From Pseudomonas sp. B21-015 (GTDB lineage Bacteria; Pseudomonadota; Gammaproteobacteria; Pseudomonadales; Pseudomonadaceae): a DNA stretch of 64,000 nt. The notes beneath the pieces are model-generated. The model was not told the DNA's origin, did not search any database, and saw only the letters and a list, made by a program, of their open reading frames with translations. Positions 24,539 to 64,000 of the stretch are shown here, in pieces (within the stretch, counting starts at the first letter, position 1; each line of letters starts with the position of its first letter). Location of the stretch: positions 3,224,001-3,288,000 of the forward strand of contig NZ_CP087196.1 of assembly GCF_024749285.1 (NCBI RefSeq), given 5' to 3'. The position numbers were made by a program, and so were the translations under genes.

Positions 24539-24634
24539 TGGCGGAAGGCAGCCGGAGTCGAACCTGCCCGGGAACGGATGCCGTCCCCAACCGGGTTTGA
24601 AGCCCGGCCGCGCCACCGGGCGCGATTGCCTTCC
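24539..24634 (-). tRNA. selC: tRNA-Sec (anticodon UCA)
   Basis: Reading on the minus strand the RNA starts GGAAGGC and ends GCCTTCC-G-CCA, giving a 96-nt molecule with encoded CCA. The anticodon is UCA (complement of TGA at 24598-24600) in a CUUCAAA loop closed by a GGG..CCC-type stem, and the long variable arm GGGACGGCATCCGTTCCC is typical of tRNA-Sec. The 5' end lies six bases after the selB stop codon, so the tRNA is probably cut from the selA-selB transcript. Confidence 0.95.
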
Positions 24635-54594: not shown

Positions 54595-57069
54595 TCAGGC
54601 CAGCACTTTTCCTTGACGGTGATCGGCAAAAAACACTTTGCCCTTGCCGATCCTATCGGAGGCCTTGGGCATATTCACCGCCTGGGTATCCTGGCCATCG
54701 ACATACCAGTAGCAATGGCTCACCGCGCGGGTGATGCCCACGTAGGCCAGCCGCAAAATCTCGTCTTTCTGCGCGCTGTCGTAGGGCTCGCTGTCGCCGG
54801 CCTTGCCGAGTCCGGCCATGCGATAGACCTGGTTCTTGTAAGGCGAGCTGGTCAGATGCTGGCAATCGCCCAGCAGGAATACCGCATCAGCTTGCAGGCC
54901 CTTGGCGCTGTGATAGGTCAGTTGCTTGAGCCTTCGCGCGTCGTGCGGCAAGCTAGAATCCACATTAACTACGGACTGAATATGCTCTTCTATCAATGAC
55001 TTATCGCTACTTTTTCGATAAAGCATCAAGATTGAATCGCCTTTTCTGTAGTGCTCGATCAACCGCTGGGCCATGCCCTGGTCATCCCGATCGAGAACGT
55101 TCACCGGCAACAGCGCCTTGGGCTCGCCGCTGGCCTTGGCCTTCTTGCCGGCGATTGCCGGTGCCGCGCGGACGATATGCTCCGCCGCGTCGATGATGTG
55201 CTGATGGCTACGGTAGTTGTCGCTGAGCATCACCTTGGTCGTGCTCGGCGACGGGAACGCCTTGTTGAACTCCATGAAGTAGGTCGGCGAGCTACCGCGC
55301 CAGCCGTAAATCGACTGCCAGTCGTCCCCCACACAAAGCAATGACGAACGTTGCGCGCCGCGCCCCACATGCATGGCCGGGCCACGACTGCGGATCTCGG
55401 CCAGGCTGGCGCGGATCCAGGAAACGATCTGCGGCGACACGTCCTGAAACTCGTCAATCATCAAGTGCGACATCGGCCTGAGCAGCTCATCGCTGAGCAG
55501 CTTGAGATTCTCCGGTGAGTGCTCGCTGAACAGGGCAAACATCCGGTTGTAGGTCATCACGGGTGGCGATTGATCCAGCAGATGATCTTCCAGCGCTCGC
55601 CAGAACAGGCTCAAGGCCTCGAAGAAAAACCGGTCCGGATCATCCTTGGCGAAACTCATCTGGCCCACGGCACTGGGCACATCCAGGCCGAGGTTTTCGA
55701 TAAACCCGGCAGCCGCGACAAAACAGTCCAGCAACGGCGCGGAACCGAGCTCGCCCTTGACCTTGTAATCAAAGCCCGGCCCGGCGCTGGCGTCGCCGGC
55801 AAGAGAGGCCAAAACACGCTTTGAAGACTCGTAACTATCAAACCATATCAATGGCTTACGACAGAAAGCTTGAAACAGGGTGCGTTTTACCGCCCATTCC
55901 GCGCGCACGGTAAGTTTGGCATTCGGACGGCTGACCTGCGGGTTTTCCCGAGGGTCGAAACCCAACACCACCCAGGCATCCAGCGCCGGAATGTAACCGT
56001 GGCAGTGAAAGGTCGAGCCGTTGATGTCGAAGGTCTGGCGATTCGGCTCGATGCCCTTGATTGGCCAGGCACCCGCGCGAAACCACAAGTCCTCGATGGT
56101 GTCGCACAGCTCTTCATCGCGCTTGGCGGCGAGCTCCGTCACTGCCATGCGCTTCTGCACGTCCGGGTGATCACGCTCCAGCTCCTTGAGCTGCAAGGCA
56201 TGACGAGACAAAGGCTTGATCAACTCGCGAAAGCGCTCATCGCGGGTGTACAGGCTGTGATAGCAGGCATTGAGTTGCTGACGCTGGGCGTCATTGATGC
56301 GCAGGTCGAAGGGATTGCTGTCGACCTCCTCATCGCCGCCCTGCACACGAAAGCTGAGGTTTTCGAAGGCTTGCAGCCGCTCGAAACCCGGCAGGCTGCG
56401 AACCATCGGCAGGATACGCGAATGGAAAGTGCGCACCAGATCGCGCGCCTCTTTAAAGCTGATTCCCCGGCCCCATACTGCAAACAGCTCGATCAGCTTG
56501 TTGATGAAGTCCTTGCGCGACTCCCGGGTGAAGGTCACCACGGTCATCGAACTCAGCTCAAACCCCAGGTAGTGGCTGAGCAGCAGGATTCGCAGCACCA
56601 GGGTGGTCGACTTGCCCGCGCCCGCCCCGGCGATCACCGAAGTCGACGGTGTGTCGCTGAAAATCATCTTCCATTGGGCAGCGCTCGGCTGGGCATGCGC
56701 GGGCAGCAGCCTAGCAACGTCGGCCTTCATGCGTTTTTTCAGCTCAGCGCTCAATGGCAGGCGCCAATCGTCGAACAGATTGTCATCGACATTGGGCGGT
56801 CGATGCTCGGTTGAGCGCGAGTCGCGGATCAGCAGAACCTGCCGACCTTCCTCCAACCCCTCGAGCTTGCCTTCCTTATAGCCGTACTCCACACCGGCGC
56901 TGTGGCCGCTGCGAAAACCGTCGGCTTGCCCGTGCAGCCAGGACGCACGGTGTTGCGCGCGCAGGCGGGTCAGGCCGTGGCCAAAAAACCGGGCGGCCAG
57001 GCGCTTGAGCAACGGCATCTCGGCCAATGGACGAAGTTCGGGAGGAAGATCGGGGGTGTGTTGCGGCAC
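54595..57069 (-). CDS. UvrD/Rep-type superfamily 1 DNA helicase
   Basis: An 824-residue SF1A helicase. Motif I is AGAGAGKSTTLVLR (about 144-157), motif Ia TVVTFTRESRKDF, motif II MIDEFQDVS, motif III VGDDWQSIYGWRGSSPTYF, motif IV SDNYRSHQHIIDAA, motif V LTYHSAKGLQADAVFLLG and motif VI RLAYVGITRAVSHCYWYV. A 100-residue N-terminal extension and a long insert between Ia and II (with a WFRAGAWPIKG...HCHGYIPALDAWVVLG segment) recall helicase IV (HelD). No nuclease catalytic pattern is clear. Role probably in DNA repair or recombination; monocistronic. Confidence 0.85.
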   Translation of the reverse strand: MPQHTPDLPPELRPLAEMPLLKRLAARFFGHGLTRLRAQHRASWLHGQADGFRSGHSAGVEYGYKEGKLEGLEEGRQVLLIRDSRSTEHRPPNVDDNLFDDWRLPLSAELKKRMKADVARLLPAHAQPSAAQWKMIFSDTPSTSVIAGAGAGKSTTLVLRILLLSHYLGFELSSMTVVTFTRESRKDFINKLIELFAVWGRGISFKEARDLVRTFHSRILPMVRSLPGFERLQAFENLSFRVQGGDEEVDSNPFDLRINDAQRQQLNACYHSLYTRDERFRELIKPLSRHALQLKELERDHPDVQKRMAVTELAAKRDEELCDTIEDLWFRAGAWPIKGIEPNRQTFDINGSTFHCHGYIPALDAWVVLGFDPRENPQVSRPNAKLTVRAEWAVKRTLFQAFCRKPLIWFDSYESSKRVLASLAGDASAGPGFDYKVKGELGSAPLLDCFVAAAGFIENLGLDVPSAVGQMSFAKDDPDRFFFEALSLFWRALEDHLLDQSPPVMTYNRMFALFSEHSPENLKLLSDELLRPMSHLMIDEFQDVSPQIVSWIRASLAEIRSRGPAMHVGRGAQRSSLLCVGDDWQSIYGWRGSSPTYFMEFNKAFPSPSTTKVMLSDNYRSHQHIIDAAEHIVRAAPAIAGKKAKASGEPKALLPVNVLDRDDQGMAQRLIEHYRKGDSILMLYRKSSDKSLIEEHIQSVVNVDSSLPHDARRLKQLTYHSAKGLQADAVFLLGDCQHLTSSPYKNQVYRMAGLGKAGDSEPYDSAQKDEILRLAYVGITRAVSHCYWYVDGQDTQAVNMPKASDRIGKGKVFFADHRQGKVLA

Positions 57070-60011: not shown

Positions 60012-61259
60012 TCAATCGATCGATTCCAGGCGCAAGGCATCTCCCAGCAGCCCCAGTGCGGCGATGAGGTCGTGATCGTCGCCGAACGTATGACTCAGGC
60101 GCAAGTGCTGCCCGTGCAGGCCATGCAGGCTGAACAACTCCCCCGGCGCGATGACCACTTGCTGCTTGAGCAGTCGCTGGAACACTCGATGTACATTGAC
60201 CTGGCGCAACGAGCGGATCCAGATCGTCGCCCCGCCCCGGGGTTCGACGAAGTGCAGCGCGTCAGGCAGACGCTCTTCGAGCAACTGGGTCATCTGCACC
60301 ATGCGTTCCTTGAGCAGTCGACGCAACACCTGCAGGTGTTGATCGATACGTCCGTTGCTGTACAGCCGTGCGATGGCTTTCTGACGAATCAGCGACAAAC
60401 GGAAGGCACGCAGCAAGAAGTGCCGTTGCAGGTCGGCGCGCAGCCGTCGCGAAAGCACATAGCCATAGGGCGCCTCCGACCCGATGATTTTCTCGAACGT
60501 GGAAAACACGATCAGCCGGTCAGGGTCCAGCAGATCGCGAAACCGCAGGCCGTTCGGCTCGAATTCGAGTTCGCCGTAACAATCGTTTTCCAACACCCAA
60601 CTGCCATGTCGCTCCAGCAGCCGTGCGGTGGATTGCCTGTTGCTGTCAGGCGCCACACTGCCCCTGGGCATGTTCAGTCCCGATGAAAGCATCACCAGTC
60701 GCACCCGCTCGGTCTCAAGCAAATGGTTCAATTGCTCAAGATCCAGACCGCCATTGGCTTGCAACGGCAATTCGATCACCTTCACATCCGCGCCCTGGAG
60801 CAGGCGCAGAATCACCCAGTCGCACGGCGACTCGACCACCACTACCGTGTCTTTGAGGCCAAGGGCGGCGATCAATATTTCCAGGACGCCACGCAGGTCT
60901 GCGCCGATATAGACATCATCGGCATGCCAGCAGCGTGTCGGCGAAGTGGTGTAGCGCGCCGCGAGGGCTGTGCGCAGCTCCAGCTCGCCGCAGGGTTGTG
61001 AAGGCGGTTGTGGCTGGCGCGGATACTGGCGCAGCAATTCTCGCTCCAGCAACAACAACGGGCTATCCAGGGGCTGTAACAACGCCGGCTCATCGGCGCT
61101 CAGCACCAGCATGCCAGGACGTCTGGCGTTGACATAGACCGTTTCGAGCAGGTCCTTGCCGCTGCCGGGCATGCCGACGGAGGACACCGGTAGTGCGTAA
61201 TAGCCCGACTTGGCGACTGAATAGACGCGCCCTTCCTTCTCCAACAGCGAATAATCCAT
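60012..61259 (-). CDS. PLP-dependent MocR/aminotransferase-type protein, DNA-binding domain missing
   Basis: A 415-residue fold-type I aminotransferase domain. It has the MocR-like order: LLEKEGRVYSVAKSGYYALP at the front, which is the wing of a GntR-type winged helix, then LQPLDSPLLLLERELLRQYPRQPQPPSQPCGELELRTALAARY, VVVESPCDWVILRLLQ, VLENDCYGELEFE and a PLP lysine in VFSTFEKIIGSEAPYGYVLSRR. The codons just before the ATG still read RSTVCS, homologous to the recognition helix of this family, but a TGA at 61281-61283 ends the frame. About 60-70 residues of DNA-binding domain are thus missing, exactly where the recombinase element starts. It is probably a 5'-truncated regulator gene, alive or not. 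Confidence 0.75.
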   Translation of the reverse strand: MDYSLLEKEGRVYSVAKSGYYALPVSSVGMPGSGKDLLETVYVNARRPGMLVLSADEPALLQPLDSPLLLLERELLRQYPRQPQPPSQPCGELELRTALAARYTTSPTRCWHADDVYIGADLRGVLEILIAALGLKDTVVVVESPCDWVILRLLQGADVKVIELPLQANGGLDLEQLNHLLETERVRLVMLSSGLNMPRGSVAPDSNRQSTARLLERHGSWVLENDCYGELEFEPNGLRFRDLLDPDRLIVFSTFEKIIGSEAPYGYVLSRRLRADLQRHFLLRAFRLSLIRQKAIARLYSNGRIDQHLQVLRRLLKERMVQMTQLLEERLPDALHFVEPRGGATIWIRSLRQVNVHRVFQRLLKQQVVIAPGELFSLHGLHGQHLRLSHTFGDDHDLIAALGLLGDALRLESID

Positions 61260-61351
61260 ACTGCATACAGTAGAACGTAATCAAAAAGACCATGAAACTC
61301 AATTAGATCAAGGTCTAGAAGCGATAAACGTACTCAATCTGTACGCTTTTT

Positions 61352-61403
61352 GTGTAAAGACAAAAAGCCCCTAACACGAACTCCGACTAGAAGTGTAAAG
61401 ACA
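61352..61403. repeat. Direct repeat at the left border of the recombinase element
   Basis: GTGTAAAGACA occurs at 61352-61362 and again at 61393-61403, the second copy running into the recombinase ATG. CTAGAAG also occurs twice (61315-61321 and 61387-61393). Repeated sites just in front of a tyrosine recombinase gene fit attachment or autoregulatory binding sites. Confidence 0.45.
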
Positions 61404-62704
61404 TGGCATTGAGGATCAAAGACTACAAAGCTAGGGACGGGAGCCGGTTCTCATTGCTCATGGATACGGAGGGGGATGGGTTTCCACTGTACTTCCCAAC
61501 TGCTTACATCAGCATGCGTTTGGCCAGCCTTACGGCAAATACGCAGCGGGTGAACCTGTACTGCCTGAAGAAGCTGTACGACTGGGCGAACGAAAAAAAG
61601 ATCGACCTGGATCACCGGTTTGCGACGAAGAAGCTGCTCACGGTGCCGGAGGTGGAATCGCTTGTGCAGTCGCTGTCGACCAACACGAAAGAGCTGGATG
61701 GCACCAGAATCAAGGGCGCGCGCGTTAGCTACTACCTGGACATCCTGATCGACTATCTCGGATGGTTATTCGGACACTGGATTAAAGACTCGAATTCAGA
61801 AGAGAACAGGTTCCTTATCGAACGCCTACAAGCAAATTTAGCTGAGCGCAAACCTAAGAGCGGCTCGAAGTCACAAGCTAAAAGGCGGCGCATCGCCAAG
61901 AAGCTAACTGATGAGGCAGATACAGCACTGCTGGAGCTATTCGAATCGTTCGACGATAAAAACCCAGAAAATCCAAAAAAGGAAAACCTGGAATACGGCA
62001 CCTCAAAGATAGAGCCAGTATCGAATTTCAAGCATGGGCTCGCGTTTCGAAACGCATTGGCCCTCAGGATCCTTTACGACATCGGCATCCGTCTTGGTGA
62101 ATTGCTGAGTTTAAGATATTCAGACTTCATCCCGGCGTCGGCCGGAGAACACGCTTACATCAGAATTGAGCGCAATCACGACGACGAATTCGACCGACGG
62201 ATCAACCAACCCGTGGCCAAAACACTCGGCCGCACCCTCCCGATCTCCGAACAACTTGAGCAGATGATGTTCACCTATTTGGGAACGTATCGTGCAGAGA
62301 TACCAAACGTCGGCTTTGATGATGGTTCATTCATCTTCGTCAACCACAAGGGCGGACGGAATCAGGGCCGTGAAATTGAGATTGCAACGTTTCGGTCTGC
62401 GCTGGCGGTGATCATCAGTCGCGACAAGAGACTCAAAGGGTTACACCCTCACCTCCTTCGACACCACTGGAACTACCGTTTCTCGCAAGACTGCATCAAG
62501 CGGGGATTAAGTGACCAGAAAGCCCGGGAGGAACGAGAACACTGGATGGGGTGGGTCGCTGGCTCTCAGTCTGCTCTCGACTATGACTTGCGAAGTATTC
62601 AACAGTCCGCCAACGAGCACGGGCGTGCGATCGCGTCGGACACTGCAAGAAACAAATCGGATCGCAAACGGCCCACTAACAACAGAAATGGGATCGGTGA
62701 TTGA
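61403..62704 (+). CDS. Tyrosine recombinase, first gene of a mobile module
   Basis: A 433-residue tyrosine recombinase with the full catalytic set: Arg230 in GIRLGELLSLRYSDF, Lys273 in VAKTLGRTLPIS, HLLR at 350-353, His380 in REHWMGWV and the nucleophile Tyr394 in SALDYDLRSI. The N-terminal half is a SAM-like core-binding domain (LTANTQRVNLYCLKKLYDWANEKKIDLDHRF), with a charged linker (residues 145-170, KRRRIAKK). The relaxed family and a second recombinase-like gene downstream fit multi-recombinase modules such as RIT elements, Tn554-type TnpA/TnpB or the Gamma-Mobile-Trio GmtY; I cannot tell which. Its start touches an 11-base direct repeat. Confidence 0.9.
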   Translation: MALRIKDYKARDGSRFSLLMDTEGDGFPLYFPTAYISMRLASLTANTQRVNLYCLKKLYDWANEKKIDLDHRFATKKLLTVPEVESLVQSLSTNTKELDGTRIKGARVSYYLDILIDYLGWLFGHWIKDSNSEENRFLIERLQANLAERKPKSGSKSQAKRRRIAKKLTDEADTALLELFESFDDKNPENPKKENLEYGTSKIEPVSNFKHGLAFRNALALRILYDIGIRLGELLSLRYSDFIPASAGEHAYIRIERNHDDEFDRRINQPVAKTLGRTLPISEQLEQMMFTYLGTYRAEIPNVGFDDGSFIFVNHKGGRNQGREIEIATFRSALAVIISRDKRLKGLHPHLLRHHWNYRFSQDCIKRGLSDQKAREEREHWMGWVAGSQSALDYDLRSIQQSANEHGRAIASDTARNKSDRKRPTNNRNGIGD

Positions 62705-62810
62705 GAAAGCATCTATTGGAATAGATATCACTTTTGCGAGAGCTCGTTACTTGCAGCCATAGCCGCATTCAGTCTGGTGCCGAACTCCCCTCGCCCGACA
62801 ACTAAACATA

Positions 62811-62852
62811 AAAACATAAAACATAAAACATAAAACATAAAACATAAAACAT
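62811..62852. repeat. Tandem heptanucleotide repeat (AAAACAT, six copies)
   Basis: Six perfect copies of AAAACAT run from 62811 to 62852, flanked by near-copies on both sides. They lie in the 176-bp gap between the two recombinase genes, 28 bp before the ATG of the second. Such repeats change copy number by slippage and could alter promoter spacing. Confidence 0.95.
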
Positions 62853-62880
62853 AAAAAACAAATTACCGGACGCCTGCATA

Positions 62881-64000
62881 ATGAACGCAAAAACAGAAAT
62901 AGCTGACGAACTGACGCAGCCTCTAGACTTCGAAGACCCGAGACAAGATGACCTCGAACTTCTAGAGGAGTTCGACCGTAACCAAGCAAAGCACGCAGGT
63001 GCATATTCCGTCGAATTTATTCACAAAAAGGTGATAATTGCGGGAGCCTATCATAAGAACATCACATGCATTATGAAATTGGACAGCCAGACTCTAATTG
63101 GCTTCAAATCCACAGTCCAAGCAATCGCTCAAAGTGGTTCACGTGGGCCGCTTACACTGAGAAGCAACATCGGGACGCTCGAAAAAGCCTTGCGAGATGT
63201 TCCAACTAAAAAATTTACGCCAACGAGCTTTCAAAACCTGATCAAAAATAAAAGTAACTCGGCCGCTAATATACTTCGATTGTTTTTGAATATCTGGTAT
63301 CGGCTGGGCTATCCAGGGCTGACCTCAGAAACAATCGATGCGGTAAACTTTTTGAAACGCCCCGCCTCCCGCTCACGTGCAAGGATAACTTCTGACGACC
63401 CTACCGAAGGCTGGTATACATCTCAAGAATACGACGATCTAATTGACACTTATTGGACGGATTACGAGAGCGACAAGGTTGGTTTGCGTGATACTACGGC
63501 ATTGTTGCTCAACGGCCAATATGGCAGGCGCGGCATTCAATTAGCAACTCTTAAGGTCTGTGATTTTCAATGTGAAGATGAAACTGACGGTATCTCGGGA
63601 AAGCGGGTCAGCTTTCCTGGCGCTAAAGACAGGCACGCAGAAGAATGGTTTCGCGGATCGAAATTTGAGACCCACCCGATGGGCGATGACCTTTGGGATT
63701 TGTGCCAACTGCAAATAAAAGGCACTATATCCGACCACGAAAGATTATTTCAGTGCGAACTTACTCCATTTGAACGCAATCAGTTACCATTTTTTCAGAA
63801 AAATCCGAAAAAGTTAGTATCCCTCAAAAACAACCGATCTCAGTTATTCTCGGATAGTAGTTGTTCAACATCTCCTTTACATCTCAGGCCCGGCGGGATG
63901 GCAATTATTCTCAGCAATAATAAAGGCACTCCGGTCATTTCCCAGCGCACGGGACAGCCAGTGCGTCAGTTTGCTTACCGGATGAGGTATACGCGTGCTA
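62881..64000 (+). CDS. Second tyrosine recombinase-like protein, runs off the window
   Basis: The frame is open from the ATG at 62881 to the window end (373 codons, no stop). It begins MNAKTEIADELTQPLDFEDP and has no counterpart to known integrase N-termini. From about residue 200 a catalytic-type fold appears: LRDTTALLLNGQYGRRGIQLATLKVCDF carries the box I arginine in RRGIQLATLK. Near the end, QPVRQFAYRMRYTRA is where the HxxR box would fall, though histidine is replaced by tyrosine or is still to come. The second histidine and tyrosine lie beyond the window. No ribosome site is obvious. It is probably co-acting with the first recombinase. Confidence 0.75.
   Translation, partial: MNAKTEIADELTQPLDFEDPRQDDLELLEEFDRNQAKHAGAYSVEFIHKKVIIAGAYHKNITCIMKLDSQTLIGFKSTVQAIAQSGSRGPLTLRSNIGTLEKALRDVPTKKFTPTSFQNLIKNKSNSAANILRLFLNIWYRLGYPGLTSETIDAVNFLKRPASRSRARITSDDPTEGWYTSQEYDDLIDTYWTDYESDKVGLRDTTALLLNGQYGRRGIQLATLKVCDFQCEDETDGISGKRVSFPGAKDRHAEEWFRGSKFETHPMGDDLWDLCQLQIKGTISDHERLFQCELTPFERNQLPFFQKNPKKLVSLKNNRSQLFSDSSCSTSPLHLRPGGMAIILSNNKGTPVISQRTGQPVRQFAYRMRYTRA

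Follow-up and report, generated by a model that had tools for sequence, protein, structure and literature searches.

Genomic Islands with three Integrases (GInts) are defined by the gene set ginABCD (Bardaji 2017, PMC5385486) and have also been called Tn6571-family transposons (PMC10121019). For GInts, ssb is a reported insertion site, the flanking imperfect direct repeats are given as 10-11 or 10-17 nt, and excision as a circle required all four gin genes (PMC5385486). A sister type, the strand-biased circularizing elements (SEs), carries the genes intA-tfp-intB-srap, with Tfp, in second place, lacking the RHRY motif, and is reported from Gammaproteobacteria only; SEs and Tn554 leave a footprint with a foreign 6-mer at attR and the host core at attL (PMC10214605), and the corresponding picture for GInts is mixed (PMC5385486). 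Here we describe a locus at the right edge of a 64,000-nucleotide stretch (the window) of Pseudomonas sp. B21-015, whose chromosome is one contig of 6.59 Mb (G000:C1; the window is G000:C1:3224001-3288000). We conclude with high confidence that the locus is a GInt, which is to say a ginABCD-driven island that splits a MocR/PdxR-like gene and carries defence and weapon cargo. The island is a member of an already known element type, delimited at both ends, and three points go beyond the GInt and SE texts to the extent covered: a clade of dnaQ islands with a mocR branch, a complete GinC residue set, and an attR 6-mer unlike the host core. An earlier note on the window had proposed a multi-recombinase mobile element entering at the right edge, and the sequence past 64000 bears this out with a third recombinase, a partner gene, cargo and a far end. 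The features within the window are as follows.

60012-61259, minus strand: 3' part of the split MocR/PdxR-like regulator gene, with the aminotransferase domain (PF00155; PdxR profile)
61248-61253, no strand: attL 6-nt core CGAATA (host sequence), the same 6-mer as at 12 of 19 uninterrupted sites
61254-61402, no strand: island left end, ATCCATACTGCATAC..., about 38.5% G+C, with two TGTAAAGAC repeats at 61353 and 61394
61403-62704, plus strand: ginA-like tyrosine recombinase gene, 433 aa (PF00589; catalytic set R230, K273, H350, R353, W384, Y394)
62881-64000, plus strand: ginB-like tyrosine recombinase gene, 547 aa, cut by the window end and ending at window-equivalent 64524 (NF041502, under cut-off)

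The island begins with a ginABCD operon

Both recombinase genes placed here by the earlier note are present as open reading frames (ORFs), at 61403-62704 (433 aa) and from 62881 onward, the latter open at the window end. Their identification by recombinase profiles held for GinA, which matched Phage_integrase (PF00589) above its cut-off (E 1.4e-08, 35.2 bits; cut-off 27.1), and fell short for GinB, which reached NCBIfam NF041502 ('integrase_1') only below its 350-bit cut-off when searched whole (E 1.3e-84, 284.7 bits) and matched no Pfam family at E 0.01. GinB is as unusual as had been remarked, with an acidic N-terminus and a second box that reads Y-R-M-R against the usual H-x-x-R. Beyond the window, ginB is followed by a third recombinase-like gene, ginC, of up to 731 aa (the homology of most relatives begins at about residue 41-57, which makes Met42 the likelier start), and by a fourth gene, ginD, of 137 aa.

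A search with GinC gave a match at E 1e-10 in 42 of 298 genomes, B21-015 included. Twenty of the 41 other genomes were fetched, leaving three of like strength (G194, G134 and G004) and 18 weaker or partial ones, and all four gin genes were found in the same order in the B21-015 locus and in 20/20 of the fetched homologous loci. A second set of 82 loci comprised 80 on GTDB contigs (the best 80 of 98) and two on viral contigs, with several genomes common to both sets; ginABCD was complete and in order in 75 of these, and ginD was recognised in 80. GinC homologues also occur in Burkholderiaceae, Ralstonia, Desulfobacterium and Holophagaceae. A viral origin was considered and rejected, as GinC had no match in 50,697 phage records and two distant matches (26% identity) in viral contigs.

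The element types named in the earlier note, RIT, Tn554 and the Gamma-Mobile-Trio (GMT), did not stand: the operon is the ginABCD of a GInt, and RIT and Tn554 differ in gene set. RIT elements have three recombinases, no fourth gene and terminal inverted repeats. We rejected this type on the fourth gene in 80/82 loci and on the lack of any inverted repeat of at least 9 nt between the island ends, where the sole matches had one arm in host flank. A GMT would also show several recombinases at one end and mixed cargo, which a citing paper describes for GMTs as offensive and defensive. However, the locus gave no match to NF040693 (recomb_GmtY) at E 1, the three weak matches of the genome lying elsewhere, and the four gin proteins match no NCBIfam Gmt model at E 0.01. 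The GmtY model works within the genus, where 7 of 119 Pseudomonas genomes score 466-536 bits (cut-off 340 bits). Furthermore, GinC and GinD profiles had no match to two GMT loci, and those of GinA and GinB touched GmtY weakly (E 3e-5 to 9e-4). In one genome (G005), a GInt with all four genes and a GMT occupy separate places, and in another (G004), the contig with a GinC match is not the one that carries a GMT. The probability that the B21-015 island is a GMT element is, in our judgment, negligible.

The island splits a MocR/PdxR-like regulator gene

The earlier note had called the gene to the left of the operon a truncated core gene, and rightly so. Its product of 415 aa, as compared with 468 aa for the intact relative in L006, matched the PdxR profile only from position 46 (positions 46-445 of 448; 120.8 bits, below the cut-off of 320), and the missing N-terminal part of the gene lies at G000:C1:3372980 onward, 87.7 kb away. 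Flank homology with relatives ends at about 61254, with a single relative (L013) reaching 61266 by chance. The regulator site was uninterrupted in 19/19 relatives examined, which were the best matches among 58 other genomes (L006-L024); CGAATA was found at the site in 12 of them, and one- or two-base variants, read by eye, in the other seven. The empty site that had been anticipated in related strains was thus intact, and the contrary outcomes given by the earlier note, namely ordinary core genes past the window or the same two genes in all related strains, did not occur. Taken together, the stop in left-flank homology, the distant N-terminal part and the uninterrupted site in relatives indicate an island of about 87.7 kb that extends from window position 61254 and for which both junctions are located. 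The insertion parts what we take to be most of the DNA-binding domain of the regulator from the aminotransferase-like part.

The left junction retains the 6-nt host core, and the 3' part of the regulator gene receives an in-frame ATG from the island (MDYSLLEK...). At the right junction, the terminus GTTGACAATCGGGAG is separated from host DNA by the 6-mer TATCTA, and the frame that encodes the N-terminal part (...SISTIQYA) meets a stop at once. The last 159 bp of the island are AT-rich (38% G+C vs 52% for the island), and imperfect direct repeats, read by eye as AATAATCCATACTGCAT and ATCTAGGCGTACTGGAT, are alike at 10/17 positions across the junctions. A tRNA gene as target was also sought, and L002-L004, which do not include the right end, contain none. 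The sole tRNA gene found in the window is a selenocysteine tRNA gene at 24539-24634.

Right junctions were read by eye in five islands, which are those of B21-015 and P. mandelii OWC5 and the dnaQ islands in G084, G005 and G010. In four of the five, GTTGACA is followed by 8 nt and then by a 6-mer that precedes host DNA, with 11 nt instead of 8 in G005 and one extra base after the 6-mer in P. mandelii OWC5. The attR 6-mer is unlike the left-junction core in four islands (TATCTA, TATCTA, GATCAA, CATAGC) and the same in G010 (CAGTAC). We propose that the exchange is staggered by 6 nt and would leave the incoming spacer at attR, as in SEs and Tn554.

A foreign 6-mer at attR with the host core at attL is the footprint expected if the island were itself an SE, which would likewise have four core genes, three with a recombinase fold. 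Against this, the motif-less protein stands second in SEs, whereas all three recombinases here keep R...R...Y, and homologues lie at ssb, a reported GInt site, and occur in Burkholderiaceae, Ralstonia, Desulfobacterium and Holophagaceae as well. This separation was made from published descriptions rather than by aligning SE reference proteins; plasmid pAQU1, searched for an SE reference, showed no annotated SE quartet in three 50-kb stretches of its 204 kb. An SE at this site strikes us as very unlikely.

Two further genomes are occupied at the same gene, those of P. mandelii OWC5 and Pseudomonas sp. RIT-PI-q, which have similar island left ends (92.6% and 73.5%, respectively). The right end also matches in P. 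mandelii OWC5 (72.7% over 161 bp at the same site), and the 12.3 kb beside this matching end have no match to the B21-015 island region. The P. mandelii island has its left part on another contig, with a 1.05-kb stretch that is 95% like B21-015 cargo, and we infer that the two contigs hold the two ends of one island. Between the two strains, identity is 89% for gin DNA, 93% for the left end, 81% for the site flanks and 90% for the nearby host gene pgm, and the attR 6-mer (TATCTA) is identical. Because pgm is so alike and the 6-mer is common to both, shared descent is to be considered beside separate arrival, and either may account for the two islands.

The same observations bear on whether the locus is an old immobile remnant that has integrase genes at its start by chance. 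One cargo gene is split, and the 6-mer identical in P. mandelii OWC5 would also be explicable by a shared old insertion. The four gin genes are open, however, and the two ends can both be recognised and matched to those of another copy, which occupies the same site and carries mostly different cargo; a remnant is therefore very unlikely. For the GInt assigned here, ginA, ginB, ginC and ginD would move the island: the three tyrosine recombinases, together with a small helical partner, would recombine the site of the circular island with attB inside the MocR/PdxR-like gene. We infer this mobility from published experiments with other GInts, and the anatomy is what is seen in B21-015.

The cargo includes defence systems and a putative Rhs weapon

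From ginD to the conserved right end the cargo measures about 81.7 kb, and a mechanical call gave 78 ORFs of at least 90 aa inside the island, gin genes included. A scan of 44 sequences from the island, which represent about 42 genes with the gin genes among them and for which libraries differed between sequences, revealed the defence and effector cargo that the earlier note had expected to the right of the window: Gabija, Shango, an E2-E1-JAB fusion and an Hcp-VgrG-Rhs cluster. Gabija is complete (GajA 1130 bits, GajB 944 bits). Shango is represented by SngA (406 bits), SngB (613 bits) and SngC, the last as two pieces (291 and 668 bits) between which two ORFs read, by eye, like an IS3-type transposase pair; SngC is apparently split by an insertion sequence. 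The E2-E1-JAB fusion adjoins a WYL protein and a protein that weakly matches LmuA and an MBL-type DRT protein, and a PDC-S06 candidate defence protein scored 717 bits. Hcp and VgrG are accompanied by an Rhs protein, which has an AHH nuclease domain at the end of its scanned C-terminal part. Of two related genes downstream of Rhs, the first named here matches Imm43 and the other is 63% identical to this gene. Judged by family, the cargo would provide anti-phage systems (Gabija, Shango and the E2-E1-JAB protein) and a type VI secretion Hcp-VgrG-Rhs nuclease with immunity genes.

Other cargo genes were observed in passing. A radical SAM protein (724 aa) lies with GNAT, methyltransferase and uncharacterised genes at L003:14469-18804, possibly as a peptide-modification cluster. 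Two patatin-like genes, 40% identical and each with a small gene after it, are in opposite parts of the island (L002:19898 to L003:2131 and L027:6102-8365), the second adjoining the island right end. Three ParA-like ATPases with a KGGVGKSP motif are encoded at L002:11630-12673, L003:5288-6415 and L004:11419-12492; the first two are 73% identical and inside a repeat of 78% DNA identity, and PADLOC gave no match for the second or the third. A UvrD-like helicase protein (824 aa) encoded outside the island, at window 54595-57069, has a 44% identical relative in the cargo about 42 kb downstream.

All three recombinases appear to keep catalytic residues

We examined residue columns in rows taken from loci with long ORFs, in which broken copies are not represented. 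GinA R230, K273, H350, R353, W384 and Y394 were kept in 20/20 aligned rows, and GinB R185, K217, R337 and Y369 in 29/29 rows of relatives. The GinB His360 column was kept in 28/29 rows, with Gln in the P. mandelii row, as also in the B21-015 protein. For GinC, R231, R460, W480 and Y492 were kept in 31/31 rows and His457 in 30/31. By these alignments, GinC appears to keep the full catalytic residue set, contrary to published statements that it is without the first arginine (PMC5385486) or without the whole RHRY motif (PMC10214605).

The first arginine of GinC is in register with those of XerA and GinA through weak alignments. A search of solved structures with GinC gave XerA (4a8e) as its single match (E 0.0048), with -2.9 bits for the segment that holds the first arginine. 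When profiles were compared, the probability was 3.9% for GinC with GinA and 49% for GinB with GinA. The equivalent structure search with GinB returned RecA chains first, via a tail segment, and then Tn1549 Int at E 0.0049. Predicted models of the P. mandelii proteins GinB (pLDDT 81) and GinC (pLDDT 78) had their best folds among Cre, XerA, integron and Tn1549 recombinases, the GinB model being like Cre, XerA and Tn1549 Int. In addition, four cysteines lie behind the catalytic tyrosine in every GinB and GinC row (alignments of loci L088 and L090). From their residue pattern, these could form a zinc site, a possibility for a region that has a pLDDT <50 in the GinC model; the word 'zinc' is absent from the main text of the GInt paper (PMC5385486).

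A clade of dnaQ islands includes a mocR branch

Among 73 loci with enough flank, the gene beside ginA was ssb in 50, dnaQ in 12, a MocR-like gene in two and none of these in nine. One of the nine, L099, is paired with L064, which has dnaQ sequence at its junction; the script missed dnaQ at L099 because the ginA frame runs on upstream. Within the 20-locus set, ssb was beside ten, dnaQ beside six and a MocR-like gene beside one, with three others. The six dnaQ loci were assigned by ORF (three) or by junction sequence (three), with one about 600 bp away. Three of the ten ssb loci were assigned by ORF and the rest from a shared uvrA-MFS neighbourhood, and all of the latter except L077 are paired with loci counted as ssb in the 73-locus set.

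A GinC tree of 83 proteins, built by a quick method, places the dnaQ and mocR islands together in a single supported clade, which has 20 rows, including one with a different neighbour. Three islands of this clade lie at mocR, those of B21-015, Pseudomonas sp. RIT-PI-q and P. mandelii OWC5; they make up a single branch, and the rows nearest to it are dnaQ islands. The dnaQ gene of B21-015 itself is uninterrupted. GInts of the dnaQ clade insert at the 5' end of dnaQ, and in one of them (L059, in G084) the left terminus, read by eye, re-supplies the start and first codons to dnaQ. This dnaQ-targeting GInt spans G084:C1 ~2540948-2649080, about 108 kb from its two ends, with nested insertions possible, and is the largest of the four islands sized (B21-015, G084, G005 and G010).

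The left terminus of the B21-015 island, CCATACTG, resembles the mocR target, and CCATCCTG is found in dnaQ islands L064 and L065. The B21-015 terminus is like the mocR right arm at 8/15 positions (about 0.005 by shuffles) vs 6/15 for dnaQ (about 0.3), and dnaQ-island termini compared with dnaQ gave 0.014-0.10, with L064 and L065 also 7/15 like mocR (about 0.08); these shuffle figures come from few termini with three offsets allowed and are uncorrected. The word dnaQ is absent from the main texts of the GInt paper (PMC5385486) and the SE paper (PMC10214605), although Table S3 of the former may list it, and among the papers listed by a full-text search none joins GInts and dnaQ to an extent suggesting the link.

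Comparison with known systems

Several points weigh against our assignment or its details. The GinC residue set is complete here (Arg in 31/31 rows), unlike the missing first arginine or RHRY motif of the published accounts. In seven of the 82 loci, a gin gene of the set is not recognisable, and four of these loci are at contig ends and three (L134, L150 and L155) are not. The 6-mer pattern comes from five junctions read by eye, among which G010 has the same 6-mer on both sides, the spacing in G005 is wider by three bases and an extra base is present in P. mandelii. A sigma-70 scan of both strands of 61100-61500 found no promoter. Finally, the GInt assignment draws on the gene set and on published descriptions rather than on alignment to the reference GInt proteins of strain DSM 4166.

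We tentatively suggest, as an idea we would sooner bet against than for, that GInts, SEs and Tn554 are one mechanistic group with evolvable targeting. Many GInts would then target replication genes (ssb and, in one clade, the 5' end of dnaQ), and the B21-015 branch would have switched to a gene for a transcription regulator, with a left terminus that now resembles this target, three fully catalytic recombinases and a 6-nt footprint like that of Tn554 and SEs. GInts are common yet little-studied carriers of defence and weapon genes. With its two known ends, the comparison of occupied and empty sites, a sister copy that shares the site but little of the cargo, and relatives of its branch at dnaQ, the B21-015 island is well suited, as a natural case, to the study of how target choice and target change come about in a multi-recombinase element and of whether GinC is catalytic.

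Compared with the systems described, to the extent of the texts consulted, the island shares with GMT elements the mix of defensive and offensive cargo and differs from them in having no GmtY match, with the two types at separate loci in G005. It is like Tn554 in its small TnpC-like partner, as GinD is described (PMC5385486), and in the 6-nt footprint, but its operon has three recombinases, whereas Tn554 has two and TnpC (PMC10214605). With SEs, it has in common four core proteins, three with a recombinase fold, and the 6-nt right-junction footprint; it differs from the gene order and host range reported for SEs (PMC10214605), and no recombinase without a catalytic set was found in its operon. 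Unlike the published GInts, it targets a MocR/PdxR-like gene, keeps the first arginine of GinC and has an attR 6-mer that differs from the host core. As in the GInt description (PMC5385486), ginABCD lies at one end of a large cargo of fitness genes, with a short AT-rich far end, imperfect junction repeats and an empty site in relatives. At about 87.7 kb, the island is larger than the sizes in the text of that paper, whose discussion speaks of 'at least 76 kb'.

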